The translations under genes were made by a program, and so were the position numbers. 45,163 nucleotides of DNA. Source: a bacterium (GTDB taxonomy: Bacteria; Bacteroidota; Ignavibacteria; Kapaibacteriales; UBA2268). Below, piece by piece: positions 11,150 through 31,368 of this stretch. Position 1 is the first letter of the stretch. Every line of letters begins with the position of its first letter. The DNA lies in NCBI GenBank assembly GCA_030431515.1, contig JAUIIX010000022.1:1-45163 (forward strand), read 5' to 3'. A model generated the notes under the pieces. The model was given only the letters and a program-made list of their open reading frames with translations. It did no database searches and was not told the DNA's origin.

Positions 11150-12205
11150 ATGAATAATTGTGATGTAAATAATAAATTCAATTGCTCGCCTTATGTGAAG
11201 TATATTTTCTTAGTTTTTGTCATGGGACTTGCTTTAATGAGCTGTAGCCAAGATGTTAGAGTAGAGAATGACGATTTCTTTAGTTCGGCAGTATTGCTTG
11301 TTGAAGATGATTATTTCTCAAAAGTAATAGATAGAAATACCTCAAAAGTAATAACAAATGATATGTTTGAATCAACTCCTGAGAAAATTCAAAGTAAAAT
11401 TTCTAATGTTTATACTTATCAAGGTGAACTTTACTTTTTGTTAAAAAACGAAAATAAAATCAAAGTATATAAAAAAGATAATTTTGAATTTATTACTGAA
11501 TATGATTTTAACGGAATTGGACAGATTGAAGATGTTGTCTTTCCTAATGTATCTAATTTTTACGTATCTCTATCGGACAAAGATCAAGTTGCTGTAGTTG
11601 ATAGAGTAAATAAGAAAATATCTAACTTCTTGATTTCAGTAAAAGCAAATCCAAATAAATTATTTACAATCGAAAACTTAGTTTATGTTGCTTGTGAAAA
11701 TAGTATAGATATTATTAGAACTGGAACAAAAGAAGTAATTGAAAGTATTGCATTAGATGGTAAACCTTTGTTACTTTCTACTAACTTAGATAAAAATGCT
11801 TTAATAATTTTTACCAAGGAAGAAAGTACATATCAAATGAATATTTATAATGCTGCTACATTTCAGTTTACAAACAAAGTAAAATTAGAATCAGAATTTT
11901 TAACATCAGCGGATGAGATGACTCTAAATCAAATAGCAATAGTTAATAATGAAAAAGAATATAGTTGGTTAGGAACTTCAGTTGGTTTATTTAGAATTGA
12001 TTTAAGAAATCTTGGTGTTTATAAATTTATGTCATCAAGAAAAGAAAATATATTAAATATTTATTTTGAACCAATTTCAGATAAAATTTTAATGCTTTCA
12101 AGTCGAAATCAACTGAAAGATTATATTCATGCAGATTCAAAAACTGGGGAATATACTGCTACTTTCCCACTTCCTGATAATTCTAATTTAATATATCCCC
12201 TTTAA
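11150..12205 (+). CDS. Predicted lipoprotein with YVTN-like beta-propeller
   Basis: A 351-residue predicted lipoprotein. After a 17-residue N-region there is a hydrophobic stretch ending in the lipobox LMSC (L29-M30-S31-C32), so the mature N-terminus would be an acylated Cys followed by SQDVRVENDD. The rest is beta-rich with blade-like repeats (DQVAVVDRVNKKISNF, NSIDIIRTGTKEVIE, SWLGTSVGLFRIDLRN) resembling YVTN or strictosidine-type propellers. No enzyme motif is seen. Its stop codon TAA overlaps the ATG of the next gene by one base, so it is translationally coupled to a SpoIIE-type phosphatase. It may sense or bind something at the membrane surface, but this is inference. An internal ATG at residue 25 is too close to the lipobox to be the start. 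Confidence 0.75.
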   Translation: MNNCDVNNKFNCSPYVKYIFLVFVMGLALMSCSQDVRVENDDFFSSAVLLVEDDYFSKVIDRNTSKVITNDMFESTPEKIQSKISNVYTYQGELYFLLKNENKIKVYKKDNFEFITEYDFNGIGQIEDVVFPNVSNFYVSLSDKDQVAVVDRVNKKISNFLISVKANPNKLFTIENLVYVACENSIDIIRTGTKEVIESIALDGKPLLLSTNLDKNALIIFTKEESTYQMNIYNAATFQFTNKVKLESEFLTSADEMTLNQIAIVNNEKEYSWLGTSVGLFRIDLRNLGVYKFMSSRKENILNIYFEPISDKILMLSSRNQLKDYIHADSKTGEYTATFPLPDNSNLIYPL

Positions 12206-13872
12206 TGAGAAAAGAAAGAATATCAATTAATCTTAAATCAATATTAGATTTAAGTGCTAAGTTAAATAATAGTGTCGATATTAATTTAATATTAAATTCT
12301 ACATTATTATCTATTATGGGAAAATTAGGAATTTCTCGTTCGGCAATTTACACTAAAAATGAAGATAAATTTAATATACTGATTAAGAAAGGAAAATGTG
12401 AAGTTAATGAAATTGATTATTTCGAGATTAGTTCATTAAGAAAAATAGACGAAAAAAGTAAGGTAGAATCAAAACTTTTAGATTGTAATTACAAATATAT
12501 TATTCCACTTTTTATTGCTGATAAATTGGAATATATAATTGTTTTAAGTGAGAGTTTAATTTATCCAGACATCAATGAAGAAGAAATTGAATATTTGAAT
12601 TTACTAACAAATATTGCATCAATTGCACTTCAAAATGCAAAAAATTATCTTCACTTAGATATTCAAAAAGTAAAAGCTGAAAGAAAGAATATTTTACTTG
12701 AAAATTTATTTCAAAATGCAAGATACTTCTTTTCATATTTTCAGAAAGATGAAATACTTAATATCTTATCATATAATTTAATGGGGCAATTAATTGTAAA
12801 TAAATTTGCTGTAATTTTATACAATGAGAATGACCAATTATTTCACGCTAAAAATAAATTTCAGAAAGAAATATCTAAAAATATTATAGATGTATTTATA
12901 AATAAAAAAACGACAAGTCATACTTCTGAAATTACAGATAGCAAAATTAAAAAAGAATTAGAATTAAACGATATTGAACTTGTTACTCCTCTTATTTTTA
13001 AAAATGAAGTGAAAGGTCTAATATTCGTAGCTAAAAGTATGTCTAAAAAGTCTTTTGGAGATGATGACTTACTTTTTATAGAATATTTGGGTAATACTGC
13101 TATTGCAGCATTAGAAAACGATAGACTATTCAAAGAAGAGTTAAAAAAGAAACAACTTGAATCAGAGTTAAATCTTGCCTTAGATATTCAAAAAGGGCTT
13201 TTCCCAAGTGAGGATTTACTTTTGGGGAAATATGAAATTTATGGTAAAAGTATTCCTTCAAAGCAAGTTGGAGGAGATTATTATGATCATATTCAAATGA
13301 ATAAAGATTGTTATTTTTTATTGGTAGCCGATGTATCTGGAAAAGGTATGCCAGCAGCAATGATAATGGCAAACTTACAAGCAGCTCTTAGAGTATTAGT
13401 AAAATTAAATTTACCTTTAAAAGATATTATCACAAATTTGAATTATATAGTTTTTTCAAACACAGCAGAAGATAAATTTGTTACTTTTTTTGGTGGAATT
13501 CTAAATACTAAAGAAAATACATTTGAGTATATAAATGCTGGTCATAATCCACCCTATTTATTTAGAAACAACGAAATTATTGAACTTGACAAAGGCGGTT
13601 TATTTCTTGGTTTGATGGAAGAACCTTTCCCTTACGAAAGTGATAAAATCCAACTACAGCCAAATGATAAAATATTACTTTATACAGATGGAATTACAGA
13701 AGCACAAAATACTCACGAAGAAGAATTTGGGACAGATAAATTACAAGAAATTGCTATTAATCAGTCAGAAGATAAATTATTATTAGAAGAGATTGTAAAT
13801 GCAGTAAAACTATTCTCTTATGGCTCCAATCAATATGACGACATTACTTTACTTTCATTAGTTTGTAAGTGA
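12205..13872 (+). CDS. Cytoplasmic GAF-GAF-SpoIIE (PP2C-type) serine phosphatase
   Basis: A 555-residue RsbU/SpoIIE-type protein phosphatase, the class that dephosphorylates anti-anti-sigma factors in partner-switching pathways. Two GAF-type sensor domains occupy ~18-150 and ~170-305, joined by helices likely to form coiled coil, and a SpoIIE domain covers ~330-553. Metal-binding Asp residues are D358 in GGDYYD, D376 in VADVSGKG and D495 in LLYTDGITEA; NAGHNPPYLF and GLFLGLM are further family marks. There is no transmembrane segment. It starts within the last base of the lipoprotein stop codon. No anti-sigma or STAS gene lies next to it, so its target is unknown. Confidence 0.92.
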   Translation: MRKERISINLKSILDLSAKLNNSVDINLILNSTLLSIMGKLGISRSAIYTKNEDKFNILIKKGKCEVNEIDYFEISSLRKIDEKSKVESKLLDCNYKYIIPLFIADKLEYIIVLSESLIYPDINEEEIEYLNLLTNIASIALQNAKNYLHLDIQKVKAERKNILLENLFQNARYFFSYFQKDEILNILSYNLMGQLIVNKFAVILYNENDQLFHAKNKFQKEISKNIIDVFINKKTTSHTSEITDSKIKKELELNDIELVTPLIFKNEVKGLIFVAKSMSKKSFGDDDLLFIEYLGNTAIAALENDRLFKEELKKKQLESELNLALDIQKGLFPSEDLLLGKYEIYGKSIPSKQVGGDYYDHIQMNKDCYFLLVADVSGKGMPAAMIMANLQAALRVLVKLNLPLKDIITNLNYIVFSNTAEDKFVTFFGGILNTKENTFEYINAGHNPPYLFRNNEIIELDKGGLFLGLMEEPFPYESDKIQLQPNDKILLYTDGITEAQNTHEEEFGTDKLQEIAINQSEDKLLLEEIVNAVKLFSYGSNQYDDITLLSLVCK

Positions 13873-14067: not shown

Positions 14068-16299
14068 TTACTTTTCAACCATTACTTTCTGGGTTCTTGT
14101 TTCTGTTCCGTGTTTTATATTAACTATGTAAATTCCTGCTTGTTCGCTACTTGTGTCCCAGATTATATGTCCGTTATAGTTTGTTTCTTTGTTGATGCTT
14201 AGTTTGTTTTCTATATTAATTTTAATACCTGCTAAATTATAAATCTCTACATCATCAACAGTAAATGGTAATGCACTATCCCAGTAAGTACTAATTTTTA
14301 CTACTTGTTTTGTTGGTTGTGGAAATGGAGGAAAAGTATATAGATAGTTTCGCTCTTCCGTTTTTTCGATGGAGGTGTATTCTATGCCGAGTTCTGAAAG
14401 GGGTAGAGTGAAAATTCCTTGATAGAAGCATATTACAATATTTCTGTCATATAAAATAAGGTCTTTGAATATCCAATTTTTGGAATTATTAAATTGTTCT
14501 ATGCCACTATCGTTTTTTGTCCAATCATTCCCATTATTAGTAGAGAAATAGAATCCATCATTTGTATAAACAAAGAAATTTTCTTTATAATTAATTAGTT
14601 TTCTGTTACTTCCATTATTTTGATAATTTTCAATTATTTTCCAAGTTTTACCATAATCTTCAGATTTGAATAGTGACTTTCCATTTGAACTTGCTATAAT
14701 TACATTATTGTTTTTTGCTATATGTTCAATTCGTTGATTTTTAATAGTATCATCATCAGAAATAGATTTCCAACTATCACCATTGTCAATTGAAAACTTT
14801 ACTCCACTATCTGTTGTTCCCGCAAACAATGTATCATTATAATTTAAGATACTTGTAAAATTTAAAGATGGTAAGGATTTATTTACTTCATTCCAATTAA
14901 GCCAAGTTTCACCAAAATCATCAGAATAATTTATTCCTCTATTAAATGATAATGCAAAAAATCTCTCTTTATTAATAAATACATAAGAAACATAAGTAGT
15001 ACCACCGCTTAGTTTTGAACTGTTCCAAGTTTTACCATAATTTTTAGAATAAGAAATATTCCCATTAGCACTGTATCCAGTCAAAATTAAACTATCTTTT
15101 ACATAAATAGACGATTGCATAAATAAATTTTTATAAAGTGAATCATTGAAAATCTTCCAACCTAAATTTAATCCTAAATTTTTAAAAATACCTCTTCCAT
15201 CACTTATTAAATACAATATATCATTATATTGACTAAGTTGATAGTTGCCACTTTTTGCAAATATTGGTGCATCAATTATTGTTTCACCTAGATCATTTGA
15301 TAATAAAATGCCCCATGGAGAAGCAAAATAAACGTAATTTTCATCTGATGATAAACTCATACTTGAATAGTTTATATTATCAATTATTTTAGTCCAATTT
15401 ATACCTAAATCACTACTTCTATGAACTTGTCCTTGAATATTAGAAACAAAGATATGATTTTTATGATATGTTAAACTAAATGCTCCTTGACCAAATACGG
15501 ACCCTTGTTTTGATATATTTTTTTGCCAAGTTTTTCCAAAATCAGTAGTAAAATTAATAAAATTTTTTGCTACTATTAAAGTATCACCAGTTACACAATA
15601 AGTGCTTAAAAGTTCCTCAAATAAACCCTTTGATCTATGAATAAATACATCTCCATCATCTTCTGAAACTAATACTTTATGTGAAAATTGGCCAGAACCT
15701 TGAGTTAAAGCTGCATCAATAATAATTATTTTTCCTTTAGATAATACTATACTCCTACCATAAATTCTCATACTATCTTTTTTATTTGTATTGTAGTAAT
15801 TGTGAACTTCTTTTTTAATCTCATTATTCTTGTAATTTACATATCCACCATAACTATCGTAAATTAACTCATTATTTTGAAATGAATAAACATCTTCAGT
15901 TAAAAAATGAAAACCATTATTATTAATTTCAAAATCAATTATTTTTCTTTTTTGTAAAACACTATCAACTATATTCCAACTATTACCTTTATCTGTGCTT
16001 ACATATAAACCATGTTTTCCAGAATAAGCTTGAGAATCATTTACTAAAATATATATTTTTTCATTATAATATATACATTTTATAATTATACCTATAGAAT
16101 CAACACTACTGATATTAGACTTATTATAAGTTTTCCACGAATCAAAGCTAAAATAAATATCATGAAATCCATAGGCGGAAATCATTCCATTTGAATTATG
16201 TATTTCTTGTGCACCAGTATATACTATAGGTGATTCGATTTCTTTCCATTGAGAAAATAATGGAATATTAAATATTATTAGTAAAATTATTTTAAACAT
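14068..16299 (-). CDS. T9SS-sorted Asp-box (BNR-type) beta-propeller protein
   Basis: A 743-residue secreted protein with signal peptide MFKIILLIIFNIPLFSQ. It contains about ten Asp-box-like units of the S-x-D-x-G-x-x-W type, such as STDKGNSW, TTDFGKTW, SSDLGINW, SDDFGETW, SIDNGDSW, SEDYGKTW and STNNGNDW, spaced through ~30-640, indicating a sortilin/sialidase-like ten-bladed or double propeller. No sialidase catalytic Arg triad is evident, so an enzyme call is not justified. The C-terminal ~85 residues are a T9SS type A sorting domain (FPQPTKQVVKI, DVEIYNLAGIKI, QAGIYIVNI, KVMVEK). A GGAG element lies just before the ATG. The cysteine-rich gene upstream has its own terminator in the 75-base gap, so this gene needs its own promoter. 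Confidence 0.87.
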   Translation of the reverse strand: MFKIILLIIFNIPLFSQWKEIESPIVYTGAQEIHNSNGMISAYGFHDIYFSFDSWKTYNKSNISSVDSIGIIIKCIYYNEKIYILVNDSQAYSGKHGLYVSTDKGNSWNIVDSVLQKRKIIDFEINNNGFHFLTEDVYSFQNNELIYDSYGGYVNYKNNEIKKEVHNYYNTNKKDSMRIYGRSIVLSKGKIIIIDAALTQGSGQFSHKVLVSEDDGDVFIHRSKGLFEELLSTYCVTGDTLIVAKNFINFTTDFGKTWQKNISKQGSVFGQGAFSLTYHKNHIFVSNIQGQVHRSSDLGINWTKIIDNINYSSMSLSSDENYVYFASPWGILLSNDLGETIIDAPIFAKSGNYQLSQYNDILYLISDGRGIFKNLGLNLGWKIFNDSLYKNLFMQSSIYVKDSLILTGYSANGNISYSKNYGKTWNSSKLSGGTTYVSYVFINKERFFALSFNRGINYSDDFGETWLNWNEVNKSLPSLNFTSILNYNDTLFAGTTDSGVKFSIDNGDSWKSISDDDTIKNQRIEHIAKNNNVIIASSNGKSLFKSEDYGKTWKIIENYQNNGSNRKLINYKENFFVYTNDGFYFSTNNGNDWTKNDSGIEQFNNSKNWIFKDLILYDRNIVICFYQGIFTLPLSELGIEYTSIEKTEERNYLYTFPPFPQPTKQVVKISTYWDSALPFTVDDVEIYNLAGIKINIENKLSINKETNYNGHIIWDTSSEQAGIYIVNIKHGTETRTQKVMVEK

Positions 16300-16374: not shown

Positions 16375-17004
16375 TTAAGGGTAGCACGGATTCGGAACTC
16401 TAAAACATTGCTGATAAACTCCTGGTGGAGTAAATAGAGGGCAAGTTGGCGGTGGACCTTCAGGTAAATTCCATTGTTGGACTGGTTCTAAATCGCCATT
16501 ATTTACACAATAAGTTGTCCAAGTTCTACAAAATGAATCGTCTTCGCAGGCAACCATTCCTGTATATGGAACATGATACCAAGGCACATGGTCAATTTTC
16601 CAACAGTTCGGCCATAATACATGATATTGAATTTTTGATTCTCCACCTTGTCCACCACATGGTGGAATTCTTCCATCATAAAGACAAGCAAAGTACCAAA
16701 TAAACTGGCCTGTATGCATGTAATTATATAGATAATCTATAACGTCATTATCACTCATACCATTAATACAAGGTGGATTTGTTGGAACTTTTATAAAACT
16801 ATTTACAATAATACCGCCTTCATCTGGATAATGAGAAGTTGGAGAAGGACATAAAACACAAACATCAACATAATATTGACATCCACCAACGTTTATGGTC
16901 ATTGTTTGTGAAGTATAATCTGTTGGGCAAGATGCCTTACTCTCCACATTAGATAAAATCAATAATGCAAAAGTAATAATAATAAATGAAACGATTTTTT
17001 TCAT
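16375..17004 (-). CDS. Cysteine-rich small secreted protein of unknown family
   Basis: A 209-residue protein that I do not recognise. It has a signal peptide (MKKIVSFIIITFALLILSNV, probable cleavage near A24) and no T9SS sorting domain. The mature part has 14 cysteines (26, 42, 49, 52, 79, 107, 116, 134, 153, 159, 166, 188, 200, 207), an even number that suits up to seven disulfides, and is rich in Trp, Tyr and Pro (HVLWPNCWKIDHVPWYH, CPLFTPPGVYQQC). C26 is not preceded by a good lipobox (K-A-S-C). It is a single-gene unit with a strong terminator on one side and a long repeat-bearing gap on the other. A disulfide-stabilised extracellular or periplasmic protein is likely; its function is unknown. 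Confidence 0.75.
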   Translation of the reverse strand: MKKIVSFIIITFALLILSNVESKASCPTDYTSQTMTINVGGCQYYVDVCVLCPSPTSHYPDEGGIIVNSFIKVPTNPPCINGMSDNDVIDYLYNYMHTGQFIWYFACLYDGRIPPCGGQGGESKIQYHVLWPNCWKIDHVPWYHVPYTGMVACEDDSFCRTWTTYCVNNGDLEPVQQWNLPEGPPPTCPLFTPPGVYQQCFRVPNPCYP

Positions 17005-17762: not shown

Positions 17763-19775
17763 TTACTTAGTAATTACAACTGAAAATGCTTCTTTTTTAT
17801 CGCCAATTGTTGCGATAATAAAATATTTTCCATTGCTTAATACATTAGAATTTAAGCTAATTCTTTCATTTGATTTACTCAATCCATTGTAAAGTGTTTG
17901 CACTACTTCACCATTAGAATTGACTAATACTAAGTTTAAATTATCTTGTGTGTTGTTTGTAAATTCAACAGCAGAGTTTGAACTTACTGGGTTTGGAGAA
18001 ATACTCAAATCAAGTAAACCTTGACTTGTTAAATCATTTCCAAATACTGAAGCTATATTTGCAGTGGCTTTTACATCAATCATCAAGTCTTCTTCTTCAC
18101 CAGCAGTAGTTACATTCAATACAGCATTATATTCTTTGCTTTCAGAAGGACTAAATCTAAATGCAACTGTTGTCTCCATTCCTGCAACTGCCCATGTTGA
18201 TGCAGCAGAAATCAATATAAATGCTTTAGAATCATTACTTCCATCTTCTTTGTCTGAAAAAGCTATATTCGTAATTTGAATATCTTCTTTACCATTATTT
18301 TTAATTTTAAGTGTCGCTGTTTTACCACCTTCAAGTTCGCCTAAATCTAAAGCAGTTCCACCAGTACTTAAAACTAAATTAGCATTTGATTTAACATCTT
18401 TACCTCTACCGTCCAAAGAAACTGTCATTTCTGCGTTATCTTTAGAATCTGATTTTATTACAATATCAGAAAAGTAGAATTGTCCTTCTTCTTTAGGTTC
18501 GAAAGTTACAGGCACAGTTAATTTTTCACCAATTGCAATAGTTATATCAGTTAAAGTTTCAATACCTAATGAATAAGCACCTTTTTCATTATCTATTAAT
18601 TCAATTGAATTAATTAGTAATGCACCTGTACCAGTATTACTAATTTCTAAGTCTAAAGTTTTAGATGTGGATACATCACCAAAGACTAAAGAAGTTGCAG
18701 CAGAAATTTGACCAAAAGGAACAATATTAGAAGCTTTACCTTTTAAATCAATTTTATAATTTGCTTTATTTTTAGCATCAGAAATAACAACTAACTCAGA
18801 ATTATAATCTCCATTTTCTTTAGGGAAAAATTCAATTATCATTTTAGCAGAACCATAAGCAGGAATACTTTTGATTGATGAACCAAATTTTATTTTATAA
18901 GCACCAGCGTCATTATTATTTAAAACAATATCTTCTATTGTTAATTCACTCAAGCCATCATTTAAAATGTTTATTTCCATTTCTTTTTTATCAGCAACAT
19001 CGCCAAAATCTAATTCAGGAAGAGAAGAAGAAATCATAGGATCTAAATCAAATTCACCAGTCTGACCAGCTTGAACAACTTTATTATTTTCACCTTGAAC
19101 AAAAGATTGAACAAATGCTACTACATGAATATTTTCTTTATTCCACTCTGGATGCCAAGGAACAGAAAATTTGAATCCTTGTTTTCCACCAGCAGTAGTA
19201 TTTAATATTTGACCACCAGTTTCAGTTGGTAATCCTTTTCTAACTACCCATGAAAAATCTTTAACTCCATTATTTCCTGCATTTGCATAGTATAAGTCAT
19301 TTTCAACTACATATACAAAAAGTCTATGACTAACTAAACTTATATCTGACTCAACTCCCACCGTAATGTCTAATTTATCAGCAAGACGAGTTTCTATTAC
19401 TTTTAAAGTAACTGGAGACATTCCACCAGTAAATGAAGTAAGTGAACCATACTGAGTATAATCTACTTTCGTACCATCTATCCAAACAGAAGGTGTACTT
19501 AATACAGAAATACCATAAATAGCTAAAGTTCTACTACTTACTTGAGGGTTATGTTTATACATAATATCACCAGGAGGATTTCCTGCGTGAAATGAAATTG
19601 GGATTACATCATTCAAATTTGCTTTAGTTATTGATTTAAAAGTTGGGTCAAAAACACCACAAGTACCACAATAAGCACTAGAATATTCTTCTACTAAGAC
19701 CATTTTTTTAGACTCTGCAAAAAGTCCAGTTGCTGATACAATCGCTATCAGAACTATTAAGTAAATTGATTTCAT
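17763..19775 (-). CDS. Omp28-like (thioredoxin-fold) protein with ASH-type repeats and T9SS sorting domain
   Basis: A 670-residue secreted protein with signal peptide (MKSIYLIVLIAIVSATGLFA). The N-terminal ~230 residues resemble Omp28 proteins: a thioredoxin-like fold with the CxxC motif YCGTC (C36, C39), SFHAGNPPGD and STPSVWIDGTKV. Three choice-of-anchor-D/ASH-type Ig-like domains follow, each opening with an LxFGDV or LDLGEL strand (ELDFGDVADKKEMEI, LVFGDVSTSKTLDLEISN, LDLGELEGGKTATLKIKN). The C-terminal ~80 residues are a T9SS sorting domain (LSISPNPVSSNSAVEF, GKYFIIATI, VVITK). The CxxC suggests a redox or disulfide role at the cell surface, but Omp28 activity is not established. It has its own terminator and a conserved upstream element (19861-19911). 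Confidence 0.87.
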   Translation of the reverse strand: MKSIYLIVLIAIVSATGLFAESKKMVLVEEYSSAYCGTCGVFDPTFKSITKANLNDVIPISFHAGNPPGDIMYKHNPQVSSRTLAIYGISVLSTPSVWIDGTKVDYTQYGSLTSFTGGMSPVTLKVIETRLADKLDITVGVESDISLVSHRLFVYVVENDLYYANAGNNGVKDFSWVVRKGLPTETGGQILNTTAGGKQGFKFSVPWHPEWNKENIHVVAFVQSFVQGENNKVVQAGQTGEFDLDPMISSSLPELDFGDVADKKEMEINILNDGLSELTIEDIVLNNNDAGAYKIKFGSSIKSIPAYGSAKMIIEFFPKENGDYNSELVVISDAKNKANYKIDLKGKASNIVPFGQISAATSLVFGDVSTSKTLDLEISNTGTGALLINSIELIDNEKGAYSLGIETLTDITIAIGEKLTVPVTFEPKEEGQFYFSDIVIKSDSKDNAEMTVSLDGRGKDVKSNANLVLSTGGTALDLGELEGGKTATLKIKNNGKEDIQITNIAFSDKEDGSNDSKAFILISAASTWAVAGMETTVAFRFSPSESKEYNAVLNVTTAGEEEDLMIDVKATANIASVFGNDLTSQGLLDLSISPNPVSSNSAVEFTNNTQDNLNLVLVNSNGEVVQTLYNGLSKSNERISLNSNVLSNGKYFIIATIGDKKEAFSVVITK

Positions 19776-19860
19776 ACTAAAATTTCCATTTAAATTTATA
19801 AAAATTATATTTCATATAAAGTAATAATAAAATAAGTGTAATTTTGTTACATTTATTTTA

Positions 19861-19911
19861 TTTTTTAAAGTAACTAACTAATATATACGTAAGAAATATA
19901 TTTTAATTGTA
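19861..19911 (-). repeat. Shared upstream element, copy 1
   Basis: A ~51-base AT-rich block, on the minus strand starting TACAATTAAAATATATTTC and continuing CGTATATATTAGTTAGTTAC. It lies 86-136 bases before the Omp28-like start codon. Copy 2 (21255-21307) upstream of the next T9SS gene differs by about three substitutions and one or two single-base length changes in homopolymer runs. Both copies have the same orientation relative to the downstream gene. Confidence 0.7.
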
Positions 19912-19921
19912 TATGTACTTT

Positions 19922-19937
19922 CCATATTACAAATATA
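19922..19937 (-). promoter_or_regulatory. Candidate -7 box upstream of shared element copy 1
   Basis: Minus-strand TATATTTGTAATATGG matches TAnnTTTG and continues with TAAT as in the boxes at 11094 and 30232. It would place the shared element in the 5' untranslated region of the Omp28-like gene. No -33 TTG is present at 19-base spacing. Confidence 0.35.
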
Positions 19938-19977
19938 AGGAATTTTTAATATAAATTTATTCAGAATGACAATGTAT

Positions 19978-21225
19978 TCACTCTTTTACAAATTTATAAA
20001 AGTCATCATTTACTTTGATGAAATAGACGCCTCTTAGCAAATTGCTAATGTCTATCTCTTGGCTTGTGTTATGATTCGCTTGGTAGCTTTCAATTTTTGA
20101 TAAACTCAAACTATAAAGCTCTAATTTACTTATCAATTCTTCAGAATTTATTACTATCATATCAGCAGATGGATTTGGATATAATCTAACTTTATTCTCA
20201 ATTCTGACGCTGCTTTTTTCTGCAGTATATTTCAAAAGTCCATCTTCAAAATTGAACCAATATTCGTTATCGTATTTTGCTGATAATCTTAAAAAAGTAA
20301 ACTCATATCTAAAATCAATTTCAGAATTTAACTCTTTAAATAGTTTATCCATATCAAAAATTTTTATAAAGTTATTATTTTCTAATTTATAAATTAATTC
20401 TTTACCTTCATTCCTGTACATAAAGTACAATATACCTTCATTATCAATTTGTGCAGAATAAACATAGGATGAATCTAAATTAATTTTATTTTCAAAATAA
20501 TCCCATTCATTTCCATCATTTTTCCAAAGTTCGCTGCTATTTCTATTATACTCTATAAAGAAAATATCATTATTTTTATTAATAAAAACCTCACCTAACC
20601 CATTTCCATCTGTTTTGTAATTTCCTTCTATCCTATGGTAAACTAAAGTGTCAGGATTTAATTTGGTTTCTATTAATGTCCAATAAGTACTTAATATAAT
20701 TTTATCATCATATCCATTTAAATGATTAAATCTTGTACCATATAGACCAGCACCACCTTGATATCGGACATGGTCTTCTGACCAGACTCCATCTTTATAA
20801 GTATATAAATGGGAACTGTTTGCTACCCACAACACATTATTAGTATCGCAGTGCACTTCTATTAAATCAGTATTCCTCAATTTATCTGGTAATACTATAC
20901 TATCTATTGTATTTTCAATATCATTTATTTTTAACTTATATAAAGTTGGCTTGAATAAGTTTTTGCATGTAAAATAAACATTTCCTAAATTATCTTCAGT
21001 ATAATGAAAAGCGAAACTAGGTAATATGCTATTTGATGTATCTATTATCTTCCATTCATTATTTTGATAATAAGATAAACCAGTTAAGTAAAATCTAAAT
21101 GGAATATTGTTTTTTGATACAAATCTAATAGTTGTACCGAAATTTTCATCACTCTCAAATATTTCCCATTTAGAATAAAGTGACAATGTAGAAATAAAGA
21201 TAAATATTATAAGTATAGATTTCAT
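19978..21225 (-). CDS. T9SS-sorted beta-propeller-like protein
   Basis: A 415-residue secreted protein with signal peptide (MKSILIIFIFISTLSLYS). The body has repeated short blades such as NVLWVANSSHLYTYKDGVW, NDIFFIEYN and GILYFMYRN with aromatic-Asn-Asp features, like the reg_prop or two-component-type propellers but without any signalling domain. The C-terminal ~70 residues are a T9SS type A sorting domain (RLYPNPSADMIVINS, LELYSLSLSKIE, RGVYFIKVN). No catalytic motif is visible. It is the last gene of a minus-strand stretch that follows the sufA terminator, and it shares an upstream element with the Omp28-like gene. Confidence 0.82.
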   Translation of the reverse strand: MKSILIIFIFISTLSLYSKWEIFESDENFGTTIRFVSKNNIPFRFYLTGLSYYQNNEWKIIDTSNSILPSFAFHYTEDNLGNVYFTCKNLFKPTLYKLKINDIENTIDSIVLPDKLRNTDLIEVHCDTNNVLWVANSSHLYTYKDGVWSEDHVRYQGGAGLYGTRFNHLNGYDDKIILSTYWTLIETKLNPDTLVYHRIEGNYKTDGNGLGEVFINKNNDIFFIEYNRNSSELWKNDGNEWDYFENKINLDSSYVYSAQIDNEGILYFMYRNEGKELIYKLENNNFIKIFDMDKLFKELNSEIDFRYEFTFLRLSAKYDNEYWFNFEDGLLKYTAEKSSVRIENKVRLYPNPSADMIVINSEELISKLELYSLSLSKIESYQANHNTSQEIDISNLLRGVYFIKVNDDFYKFVKE

Positions 21226-21254
21226 TTAAAATAGTTTAGAAATAATTTGAAATA

Positions 21255-21307
21255 TTTTTTTAAAAGTAATTAACTAATATATACGAGAGAAATATATTTT
21301 AATTGTA
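21255..21307 (-). repeat. Shared upstream element, copy 2
   Basis: A ~51-base block nearly identical to 19861-19911 (minus strand, TACAATTAAAATATATTTC then CGTATATATTAGTTAATTAC), lying 30-82 bases before the start codon of the 19978-21225 gene. A degenerate TTTTATGTAATTTAG box is found just upstream (21319-21333), overlapping the U tract of the sufA terminator. Confidence 0.7.
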
Positions 21308-21329
21308 ACAAATTGATACTAAATTACAT

Positions 21330-21360
21330 AAAAAAAAGCCCAAGCAATAGCTTGGGCTTT
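21330..21360 (-). terminator. Rho-independent terminator of the suf genes
   Basis: A perfect 11-bp stem AAAGCCCAAGC/GCTTGGGCTTT (21335-21360) with loop AATA, followed on the minus strand by eight T residues. It lies 26 bases after the sufA stop codon and ends the sufS-sufT-reductase-sufA unit. Confidence 0.92.
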
Positions 21361-21386
21361 TATATATCCTGCATAATGGAACTAAA

Positions 21387-27606: not shown

Positions 27607-30150
27607 TTAATCCTTGATGAATTTGAAAGATTCTGAATTACTTTCATTTTTAATATTACAAATATAAACACCTTTTGTTTTAATATTAGTTAAATCAATA
27701 TCAATTATATAATTATTAATTGAATTCACATAAATATTATCTTCAATTAGCAAATTACCCTGTAAATCAAAAATCTCAATATGATATTTACTATTAGATT
27801 TATCAGGAAAAAGTGTAATAAATAGCTTTTCTTTTACAGGATTAGGGTAATATGGTATCTTTAGATTTTCATTTTTACTTTTCACATTACTTGCTTTGTC
27901 TAAGAAAAAATTAGAAAATGAATTATAACTGTTCCCGTTTTTATCACTTGAGTAATATTTTGCAAAATTTTTAATTTGCATATTCTTAGTTTCATCTAAT
28001 AAAAACTCTTTCCATTCATCTTCATCTAATCTTTTAAAATCACGAGTTATATATTCATAATAACTAAAAACAGGACCAACATAAGCTGTTTTCGAGCCAT
28101 CAATATTTTCACTTACTATGAAAGCTAAATTAAGCGGACCAACTCCAGCGTGTAACACCTTACCTACTTGATCTTCGTCTTCTTGAGGGATAGTGTGAAC
28201 ATCTGCCACAGTATAATCTTCTTTGAATGTTGCTTCAACAAAAGTTCCATCATAAATATCATCTATACCATAAAACAATTCATTAAACCATCCCTTATAA
28301 AGATAAGAACCACAATCTTTATATGAAATAGATTGACAAACACTCATTGGTATCATCATGTTTTGTAAAAATGTTGCCTCATCAGAACTTAGTTCAATTA
28401 AATTATATTGCTTTTCTGATATGGATGTGAGTGTATCAATTATACTATCATATTTATCAAAGAAACTATTTCTAAGATTAGATTGAGTACCATATAAATC
28501 AGATAAAGTGCTTCTTAAAAGCAAACTATATGACTTTACTTTTTTAAAAAATTCAACATTTGGTTCAACAATAGATTTAGGAAAACTACATATATAAGAA
28601 TTTGTATAAGGTTGCTTTGCAGATAACAAGAAATCTCTACGAAGTTGAGACCAAGAAGCGAGTTGTGTATTTAAGTTTTTTTGATTCCAAGCAGCGGTTT
28701 GAGCAAATTTTGGAAGTTTTTCTCTTTCAGTTTTGTCGTTAATATTAAAAGTTCTAAGTATATTCAGCCATGAATTATAAATAGTTGAATTCCAAGCGGA
28801 ATCACTATTGTTGTCAAACAAATATCTATTAGCTGCTAAATTACTTCCATAATTATAATTATTCAATTCAGGAACAAGTAATTGAGCAGACGCATTATGC
28901 CCTAATGCAAAAGTAATATCTAAAGTAGAAGGAATCCATCTTTTTACAACATTTCCTTTGTAAGTGATATTACTATAAGTTGTATTTGCAGTTACGTAAC
29001 CATCAAGAATTGGTCTCTGTCCAAATACTTTAAAAACTACTGGTGTTGTACCTTGAACTCCTGGTCCTAAATTTGTCATTACGTTACCACTATAGCTTTG
29101 CTTTGCAGAGTTTAATTCTAATATTTTTTGTTTTAAACTATCACGTACATTTTCATCTAAAAGAGGCATCATATCAGTAATACCCATTTCTTCTAATATA
29201 TTGTTTATTTCAACAGGAGTAATATTATCCTGTCTTCCAATTAGTTTATTATAAGTATTATCACATATTTTATAATTCTCATAATCATTTTTCAGAGCAA
29301 TTGAAAGCATAACTGCTTGTAATAACATAATATCTAAATCTTTCTTGCTATGTTGTTCTACAGTTCCTTTACCATTTTCAATTACTATTTCTGTTCTTCC
29401 TAACCAAGTCATTGATTTAAAGAAATTGTCTGCATTTGCAGCTTTATAATATCCCCTAACTTTAAACTGACTAAAGTCATAAGGAACAAGAAACGATTCA
29501 GAGAATAAATATATATCCATAAATTCTTCCGAAGAAATATAAGAAAGTATTTCACCAACTCTTCCCTCACTGGTAGTAGTATTATCTATTAAGTTTTTAG
29601 TTATAGAAATATAGTCTCTTGTATTATCAAATGCTTTAGAAAATATTTCATAATTATATTCATCTTTAGGTAAATTCACAAAAGCCGAATAAAACAATCC
29701 ATAAGATTTAGGCATTTCTTTGACTATATTATTCCATTTGCTTTGAATAGCATTTAACTCTATTTCTTCCAAAAACTTCTGAAAATTAAAGTGGATAGAA
29801 TATAATATTAAATCGGCTGAGACATAATTTGGTAAATCATTTTGAAATACTTGTTTATAAGCATCAAAAAAAGTTTTATATTGAAATCTATTAGATACAA
29901 AGAAACCATTTTTATTTAATAACTTTAACTCATCTTGTGTTAAATTATATTTTTCAATTACTTTGTCAAAATATTCAATATCATTTAATTTTACATTAAT
30001 ATTCTCTAAATACTCTCCAGCAGGATACATTTCTAACAATTGATTAGTATTCATATCTTTGTTGTTTTCTAAAAACTCTTTATATTTCTCAACATCTAAA
30101 GCTTGTGAAAAGGTGAAATGTGAAATTACAAACATTAATAATATTAACAT
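27607..30150 (-). CDS. DUF3160 protein with T9SS sorting domain
   Basis: An 847-residue secreted protein. Features of DUF3160 include the run VSNRFQYKTFFDAYKQVFQN, LPNYVSADLILYSIHFNFQKFLEE, the central VVFKVFGQRPILDGYVTANTTY, and LVPELNNYNYGSN, LRTFNINDKTER. DUF3160 is an all-helical-rich domain of unknown function, common in secreted proteins of FCB bacteria. The signal peptide MLILLMFVISHFTFSQ lacks a positive N-region, which is unusual; no in-frame upstream start exists because a stop codon lies five codons before the ATG. The C-terminus is a clear T9SS type A sorting domain (PYYPNPVKEKLFITL, IEIFDLQGNLL, GVYICNIKN). AAGGAG at 30156-30161 is a good ribosome-binding site. It is the first gene of a two-gene operon with the PKD protein. 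Confidence 0.85.
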   Translation of the reverse strand: MLILLMFVISHFTFSQALDVEKYKEFLENNKDMNTNQLLEMYPAGEYLENINVKLNDIEYFDKVIEKYNLTQDELKLLNKNGFFVSNRFQYKTFFDAYKQVFQNDLPNYVSADLILYSIHFNFQKFLEEIELNAIQSKWNNIVKEMPKSYGLFYSAFVNLPKDEYNYEIFSKAFDNTRDYISITKNLIDNTTTSEGRVGEILSYISSEEFMDIYLFSESFLVPYDFSQFKVRGYYKAANADNFFKSMTWLGRTEIVIENGKGTVEQHSKKDLDIMLLQAVMLSIALKNDYENYKICDNTYNKLIGRQDNITPVEINNILEEMGITDMMPLLDENVRDSLKQKILELNSAKQSYSGNVMTNLGPGVQGTTPVVFKVFGQRPILDGYVTANTTYSNITYKGNVVKRWIPSTLDITFALGHNASAQLLVPELNNYNYGSNLAANRYLFDNNSDSAWNSTIYNSWLNILRTFNINDKTEREKLPKFAQTAAWNQKNLNTQLASWSQLRRDFLLSAKQPYTNSYICSFPKSIVEPNVEFFKKVKSYSLLLRSTLSDLYGTQSNLRNSFFDKYDSIIDTLTSISEKQYNLIELSSDEATFLQNMMIPMSVCQSISYKDCGSYLYKGWFNELFYGIDDIYDGTFVEATFKEDYTVADVHTIPQEDEDQVGKVLHAGVGPLNLAFIVSENIDGSKTAYVGPVFSYYEYITRDFKRLDEDEWKEFLLDETKNMQIKNFAKYYSSDKNGNSYNSFSNFFLDKASNVKSKNENLKIPYYPNPVKEKLFITLFPDKSNSKYHIEIFDLQGNLLIEDNIYVNSINNYIIDIDLTNIKTKGVYICNIKNESNSESFKFIKD

Positions 30151-30231
30151 AATGACTCCTTGTTAAATATACTTTTTCTAAAAATGTACAATCTATATAT
30201 ACATAGACACAATTTTTAGTAAAACATCTCG

Positions 30232-30246
30232 CTAAATTACAAAATA
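30232..30246 (-). promoter_or_regulatory. Candidate promoter box TATTTTGTAATTTAG upstream of the DUF3160 gene
   Basis: Minus-strand TATTTTGTAATTTAG, identical to 11094-11108 on the plus strand, lies 82-96 bases before the DUF3160 start codon. Downstream of it (30192-30225) is an AT-rich stretch containing GTATATATAG that may be a diverged third copy of the element at 19861-19911. Confidence 0.4.
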
Positions 30247-30982: not shown

Positions 30983-31065
30983 GGGCAGATACCGAAGTGG
31001 TTAAACGGGGCAGACTGTAAATCTGTTGGAGTACTCCTACGGAGGTTCGAATCCTTCTCTGCCCA
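30983..31065 (+). tRNA. tRNA-Tyr (GTA anticodon)
   Basis: An 83-base class II tRNA. The acceptor stem GGGCAGA pairs with TCTGCCC (31058-31064), discriminator A at 31065. The anticodon GTA is at 31017-31019 in the loop of the GCAGA/TCTGT-type stem, and a long variable arm (GGAGTACTCCTACGGA region) is present, as expected for tRNA-Tyr. The CCA end is not encoded. First gene of a four-tRNA cluster. Confidence 0.97.
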
Positions 31066-31084
31066 CGATATAAGGAATAGTAAT

Positions 31085-31157
31085 GCGAAAGTAGCTCAAT
31101 TGGTAGAGCATCAGCCTTCCAAGCTGAGGGTTGCGGGTTCGAGTCTCGTCTTTCGCT
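31085..31157 (+). tRNA. tRNA-Gly (TCC anticodon)
   Basis: A 73-base tRNA. Acceptor GCGAAAG pairs with CTTTCGC (31150-31156), discriminator T. The anticodon stem TCAGC/GCTGA encloses the loop CTTCCAA, with anticodon TCC at 31118-31120. D-loop (AGCTCAATTGGTAGAGC) and T-loop (GGGTTCGAGTC) are standard. CCA is not encoded. Confidence 0.97.
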
Positions 31158-31166
31158 CTAAAATCT

Positions 31167-31238
<72 letters not shown>

Positions 31239-31276
31239 CATCAACTTACGGGGATTTGTAGTTGCTCACTCATTAT

Positions 31277-31349
31277 GCGGGTGTAGCTCAATTGGTAGAG
31301 TGGCGGTCTCCAAAACCGTAGGCTGTGGGTTCAAGTCCTACCGCCCGTG
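31277..31349 (+). tRNA. tRNA-Trp (CCA anticodon)
   Basis: A 73-base tRNA. Acceptor GCGGGTG pairs with CGCCCGT (31342-31348) with two wobble pairs; discriminator G at 31349, the expected identity element for bacterial tRNA-Trp. The anticodon loop CTCCAAA gives anticodon CCA at 31310-31312. It lies 19 bases before secE, as in the standard tRNA-Trp-secE-nusG arrangement. Confidence 0.97.
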
Positions 31350-31368
31350 CTAAACAAGAGAGAAAAAT

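Follow-up and report, generated by a model that had tools for sequence, protein, structure and literature searches.

A 51-nt block upstream of two neighbouring T9SS cargo genes, and two candidate ECF-type promoter classes ahead of T9SS cargo, in a Kapaibacteriales genome

Two adjoining genes in the window analyzed here (the whole 45,163-nt stretch of contig JAUIIX010000022.1, from a bacterium of the order Kapaibacteriales) are preceded by nearly the same short block of DNA, which raises the question of whether T9SS cargo genes share an upstream regulatory element or whether one upstream segment was simply copied to a neighbouring gene. Gene A (17763..19775, minus strand) encodes an Omp28-like protein with Ig-like domains and a T9SS sorting domain, and gene B (19978..21225, minus strand) encodes a propeller-like T9SS cargo protein with two paralogues (C42:24669 and C116:9268). 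A further T9SS cargo gene, encoding a DUF3160 protein, is located at 27607..30150 on the minus strand. The PF18962/TIGR04183 C-terminal sorting domain was found in all three proteins, which classifies them as T9SS type A cargo, and no similarity between the A and B proteins was detected by BLASTP at E 1e-3. Over 117 nt, the DNA for the gene B sorting domain agrees at 83% of positions with that of its C42 paralogue (window 19960-20075; C42:24648-24763), while the overall identity between the two proteins is only about 33%; the domain thus looks as if it had been exchanged between these cargo genes.

Copy A of the block is located at 19861..19911 (minus strand), 85 nt from the ATG of gene A, and copy B at 21257..21307 (minus strand), 31 nt from the ATG of gene B. 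The copies lie about 1.4 kb apart in the same orientation, and 47 of 51 positions agree in an ungapped pairwise alignment, in line with an earlier note on this DNA that had described two blocks of about 92% identity, in a shared orientation, 5' of the Omp28-like and propeller genes; its coordinates for the first block were exact, and the second begins at 21257 rather than 21255. In a BLAST comparison against the whole genome, the match between the copies had an E-value of 7.4e-15. For a comparison among upstream regions, 150 of 215 PF18962 candidates were scored, so that the cargo count is a lower bound; 7 of these 150 matches fell in the window, 122 were used to define stretches, and 21 were dropped because of short or broken frames. 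The stretches (100 of the 105 planned) provided 348 ORFs, all starting with ATG, among which 107 cargo starts were recognized. When all pairs of the 348 upstream regions were compared, copies A and B scored 75.2 bits, whereas the best pair in a simulated control (15 sets of 348 upstream regions each, of similar composition) reached only 42.8-49.1 bits. The pair lies far above these simulated maxima and is thus real.

The block was found at two loci only in the 3.55-Mb genome, both by BLAST and by a search allowing three mismatches with part of the block. Its core, with up to three mismatches, was detected in one of 60 genomes, its own, and in none of the 59 relatives, and viral contigs contained no exact match to it. 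Among the 348 upstream regions, no further one exceeded the null expectation against the 51-mer, and the block is absent upstream of both paralogues of gene B and of the three best relatives of gene A (31-37% identity). A candidate role as a genome-wide motif was therefore rejected, and with only two loci and no conservation, the 51-mer fails as a shared regulatory element of cargo genes.

The earlier note had offered, as one of two readings, a conserved 5' UTR or regulatory RNA for surface cargo, and had placed a -7-like box just outside each block, from which such a leader would be transcribed. Part of this description holds: TATATTTG, which matches the Bacteroidota -7 box (TAnnTTTG) exactly, is found at 19930..19937 (minus strand), 18 nt 5' of copy A, and TAnnTTTG is enriched 25-100 nt ahead of ATGs in this genome. 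In the accessible part of a study of Flavobacterium psychrophilum, the SM1-3 classes are likewise TAnnTTTG promoters, assigned to sigma-A (PMC9723704). Next to copy B, however, only TATCAATTTG was found, with an internal spacing that is wrong for a -7 box. Both copies allow a hairpin to be drawn, but they fold no better than shuffled sequences (z -0.6 and -0.4), and no Rfam family reached its gathering score in the block region; the matches below that score mostly surround a terminator hairpin near 21330-21375. Moreover, copy A would remain untranscribed from the candidate promoter of gene A described below, if that promoter is used. Taken with the lack of further copies in the genome or in the 59 relatives, this makes a transcribed leader very unlikely, and the 51-mer is neither a genome-wide nor a family-wide RNA element.

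That the block derives from a small MITE- or REP-like mobile element appears even less likely. Other short repeats are dispersed in this genome, such as GTCATTCTGAGGCGTAGCCGAAGAATCTCCCAGAAATTAC and the perfect palindrome GTAGTGAACGCAAATTTGCGTTCACTAC, which occur in upstream regions of C138, C25, C33, C145, and C15. The 51-mer is not a dispersed multi-copy element of this kind: its two copies lie 1.4 kb apart, in the same orientation, before neighbouring genes, and viral contigs carry no exact match to its core.

Short local duplications of upstream regions occur in bacterial genomes, and the extent of the similarity between the two loci is consistent with such an event. The flanks downstream of copies A and B align with a score of 31 (90th and 95th percentiles for unrelated upstream regions: 30 and 32), and the upstream flanks with a score of 17 (median for unrelated upstream regions: 21), so that they hardly align at all. 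In 0.50 Mb of stretches plus the window, five other blocks of 29-100 nt, counted only outside listed ORFs, are shared with 94-100% identity by the upstream regions of neighbouring genes (40 nt in C119, 29 nt in C14, 100 nt in C10, 48 nt in C110, and 68 nt in C128). Four of these five pairs precede genes without BLASTP similarity at E 1e-3. The C119 block (11728-11767 and 12980-13019) stands before two neighbouring genes whose proteins share 60% identity over their first 30 residues, with no other match reported, and the C10 block contains TGTAAC...GTGTCTATT. With the C128 block as far as 276-300 nt upstream, and with the C110 block possibly forming the last part of a reading frame that was not listed, three clean pairs remain. 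Further repeats seen in the same scan were not counted, as they lie within coding regions or, for one pair (C145), before true paralogues.

The genome thus shows repeated local copying of short upstream segments, and the 51-mer is consistent with such a segment, as the earlier note had suggested in its alternative proposal of a trace of duplicated upstream regions. The pair resembles known local upstream duplications in that adjacent genes share a near-identical non-coding block, and differs from them in that genes A and B encode proteins without similarity (BLASTP, E 1e-3) and in that the flanks align poorly. The best reading of these alignments is that one short upstream segment was probably copied between neighbouring T9SS cargo genes. 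An old duplication in which selection kept the block alone would also account for a core of 92% identity between flanks that align poorly. On its own, the 51-mer is an ordinary and minor finding.

The search of the whole genome and of relatives for gene sets biased toward T9SS cargo, which the earlier note had recommended, gave nothing for the 51-mer itself and led instead to two classes of ECF-type promoter-like sites. We estimate at roughly 0.6 the probability that the explanation as a whole is correct, namely a locally copied 51-mer together with two ECF-type promoter classes that serve cargo genes. In both classes, two boxes with near-fixed spacing are oriented toward the gene (18 sites for class 1 and 10 for class 2). 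The models of these classes (R1 and R2) gave no match to the 51-mer within the window, and the 51-mer was not matched to an ECF class that is shared with an ECF operon.

Class 1 is an ECF-type promoter-like sequence of the form TGTAACAAAAT...GTTAAT. Among the 400 commonest 10-mers of the upstream set, TGTAACAAAA had the widest distribution of those containing two or more G/C; it was found in 11 upstream regions and was commoner before cargo genes (9/107) than in other upstream regions (2/241). The exact 12-mer AATGTAACAAAA occurs at 19 sites in the genome, compared with 4 for a backwards control, and at 9 of the 19 a cargo start follows within 900 nt on the same strand. This association partly reflects how the word was chosen. 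Seven of the eight sites inside the upstream set used for word choice precede cargo genes, whereas only 2 of the 11 sites outside it directly do so (P 0.02 relative to random sites, or P 0.12 under an assumed cargo share of 5.6%). The cargo link in this genome is thus weaker when it is made independent of the choice of motif. In addition, several class-1 sites sit in repeated cassettes: three more of the 11 sites, in C118, C133, and C152, are copies of one cassette, in which a small secreted-protein gene is followed by a PF18962 gene about 1.1 kb away. A further one of the 11 stands before the ECF gene of C141 described below.

The window itself contains a relative of these cassettes. A BNR-type cargo gene (14068-16299), a small gene (16375-17004), and the DNA upstream of them to about 17265 have relatives at C145, C152, C133, and C118. 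The similarity includes roughly 250 nt of upstream sequence (78-95% identity between pairs of copies), and in the four copies elsewhere a class-1 site lies some 400 nt upstream.

The class-1 model R1 was built from 15 sites with the exact 12-mer and 3 further sites of the cargo set (18 in all), and the sites of gene A and C141 were excluded. The model found at least 22 sites at E<1e-3 when 150 of 7405 candidates were scored. Eighteen of the 22 had been used to build the model, and the other four are C118:56, C141, C152:29559, and C57:7477. A cargo start lies within 900 nt of 11 of the 22 sites, all of them model-building, and of none of the other four. The C141 site reached 43.5 bits although it had been left out, and it is located 39 nt before a gene encoding a 190-aa ECF protein with the Sigma70_r2 and r4 domains. 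The next ORF begins 3 nt past the stop codon of the sigma gene; a membrane segment was recognized in its product by eye, and its match to RseA_N (E 0.0046) fell below the cut-off.

In the window, a candidate class-1 promoter of gene A, TGTAAC-N16-TATTATT, was found at 19813..19858 (minus strand), starting 2 nt 3' of copy A. It is a weak match to R1 (14.4 bits, E 0.11 genome-wide) that keeps the exact AATGTAACAAAA core (19842-19853) and the 16-nt spacing, and upstream of the three best relatives of gene A no obvious class-1 site was seen by eye. Gene A may thus belong to class 1, an assignment that we regard as weak. No promoter was recognized for gene B. From the position of the block, we infer that the 51-mer is, or was, promoter-region DNA.

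A more specific function is conceivable at this position. The 51-mer might be an operator or upstream activating site, where a dimeric regulator bound to the dyad AATATAT-N9-ATATATT would co-regulate the adjacent genes A and B. The dyad is present in both copies with its arms unchanged, and copy A ends 9 nt before the candidate ECF -35 box of gene A, where an activator site would sit, so that such a role is possible; in Porphyromonas gingivalis, PorX reportedly binds promoters together with the SigP holoenzyme, according to the accessible part of the report (PMC8265659). Nevertheless, all four changes between the copies would be expected to miss the dyad about a quarter of the time by our own estimate, no promoter was recognized beside copy B, and the block exists at two genomic sites only, with no further upstream region above the null expectation. 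We therefore consider an operator unlikely and retain the local copying of an upstream segment as the preferred explanation of the pair.

A possible third, diverged copy of the block had also been placed before the DUF3160 gene, at 30192-30225. When scored with the 51-mer matrix, this upstream region came only 128th of 348, and its best 28-nt stretch agreed with the block at 16/28 positions, as in random sequence (P 0.61). It was thus rejected as a copy of the 51-mer and reassigned to class 2, a promoter-like sequence with multiple copies.

Class 2 is also ECF-type, of the form CGTGAY...TGTGTCTATGTATATAT, with 9 close sites in the genome. The pattern TGTGTCTNTGTATATAT matched 9 sites with no or one mismatch and 19 with up to two, compared with 6 for the control, and alignment of the sites places a CGTGAY-like box some 14 nt ahead of TGTGTCT. 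The candidate class-2 promoter of the DUF3160 gene, GCGAGATGTTTT...TGTGTCTATGTATATATA, is located at 30182..30236 on the minus strand. With the 10-site model R2, from which the DUF3160 site had been left out, it scored 42.4 bits (E 3.9e-12 in 70 kb), a strong fit of the DUF3160 gene to class 2. The genes downstream of class-2 sites are mixed. Those of the DUF3160 and C11 sites encode PF18962 cargo; the sorting-domain scores for C65 and C15 fell below the cut-off; the gene in C131 encodes an IgGFc-binding protein and is cut by the end of the contig; and the others include a cytochrome oxidase gene, at a distance of about 400 nt, and genes for a sugar transferase and an epimerase-like protein. 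In C116, a site that formed part of the model heads an ORF for a lipoprotein-like protein of 315 aa with no Pfam match, whose stop codon overlaps the beginning of the ECF sigma gene at C116:5351-5896, and an anti-sigma-like ORF is next.

Class 1 was also sought in relatives. The pattern TG[TA][AG]A[CT]-N15-17-GTTA was found within 150 nt upstream of 7 of 19 ECF homologues (the best per genome, in 19 genomes), and in none of the same 19 upstream regions on the reverse strand (0.14 expected). A longer class-1-like pattern gave 48 matches in 25 of 60 genomes, compared with 8 for the backwards control; both patterns were framed post hoc, after the sequences had been looked at. Forty-two of these sites lie outside the genome studied here, and 20 were sampled (12 of the 14 with up to two mismatches, and 8 with three). 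The next gene encoded a protein at or above the PF18962 cut-off for 9 of the 20 sites, including L381 and L394, which are at the cut-off itself (27.1 and 27.0 against 27), and an ECF sigma factor for 2 of the 20. The 9 cargo genes correspond to P 5e-7 or 6e-5 under an assumed cargo share of 5.6% or 10%, respectively. The remaining sampled sites precede other genes, or genes that are cut short (L382 and L387) or unproven, such as those of L385 and L397, whose ends resemble sorting domains with scores below every cut-off; L386 has no ORF downstream. These sites were found without regard to the genes that follow them, and they are thus the best evidence for a link between class 1 and cargo.

ECF sigma factors are typically held by a membrane anti-sigma factor until a signal frees them, upon which the sigma factor transcribes its own operon and its target genes. 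Each class described here was also found, by position, before an ECF gene or operon (C141 for class 1 and C116 for class 2). The recurring signals upstream of cargo genes therefore look like promoters for two specialized ECF sigma factors, and we propose, from the arrangement of these sites, that each class may be recognized by the sigma factor at whose gene it is found and may be autoregulated. A signal would release the sigma factor from its anti-sigma factor, and the freed sigma factor would transcribe its own operon together with a gene set that includes exported cargo, with GTTAAT and TGTGTCTATG as the proposed -10 boxes. The binding of the sigma factors, the signal, and the response of gene A and the DUF3160 gene to different sigma factors are all inferred within this scheme. 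The data support the view that cargo genes share upstream regulatory DNA, through the two ECF-type classes and not through the 51-mer.

A broader proposal, to which we give slightly less than an even chance, is that the T9SS cargo of this family is divided among parallel, self-activating ECF regulons (at least two here), each with its own promoter and anti-sigma factor, and that promoter segments are copied between neighbouring genes. If so, the set of exported proteins could be switched as sub-sets, and copied promoter segments would bring new cargo into a regulon. With two classes that are each positioned at an ECF gene, and one of them recurring across the family, a map from sigma factors to exported proteins becomes testable.

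Related systems are known in other Bacteroidota. In P. gingivalis, the sigma factor SigP directs T9SS component genes under PorX/PorY, a two-component control, and the targets named in the accessible parts of the two reports are the machinery genes porT, porV, porP, and others (PMC4800418, PMC8265659). Our classes are like SigP in that an ECF sigma factor is tied to T9SS-related genes, here by prediction from sequence; unlike in those accounts of SigP, the motif differs, many cargo genes stand among the candidate targets, and anti-sigma-like ORFs lie next to the sigma genes. In F. psychrophilum, the ECF-type promoter class SM6 includes an ECF/anti-sigma pair and T9SS genes, and the genes shown in the accessible part of the paper are those of the machinery proteins GldN and PorU and of membrane proteins, with a CGT box as the -10 element (PMC9723704). 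The classes described here similarly cover an ECF gene or operon and T9SS genes, but their sequence differs and they include many cargo genes, whereas no cargo set is described for SM6 in that part. Our classes thus resemble SigP and SM6, as far as these sources present them, in kind, and differ from them in sequence and in the many cargo genes. No ECF regulon for T9SS cargo was found in the titles and abstract openings of the papers that literature searches listed. The regulators found described in these sources (SigP and SM6) are centred on the machinery, and do not explain how a choice is made among more than 100 T9SS cargo genes.

A TGTAAC...GTGTT-like sequence was also seen just upstream of other ECF genes in this genome, namely those in C54 and C158 and, by eye, in C151, C50, and C86, the pattern itself being found in 2 of 7; this suggests that further related promoter classes may exist. 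Finally, four consecutive tRNA genes (Tyr, Gly, Thr, and Trp) are located at 30983-31350 of the window.
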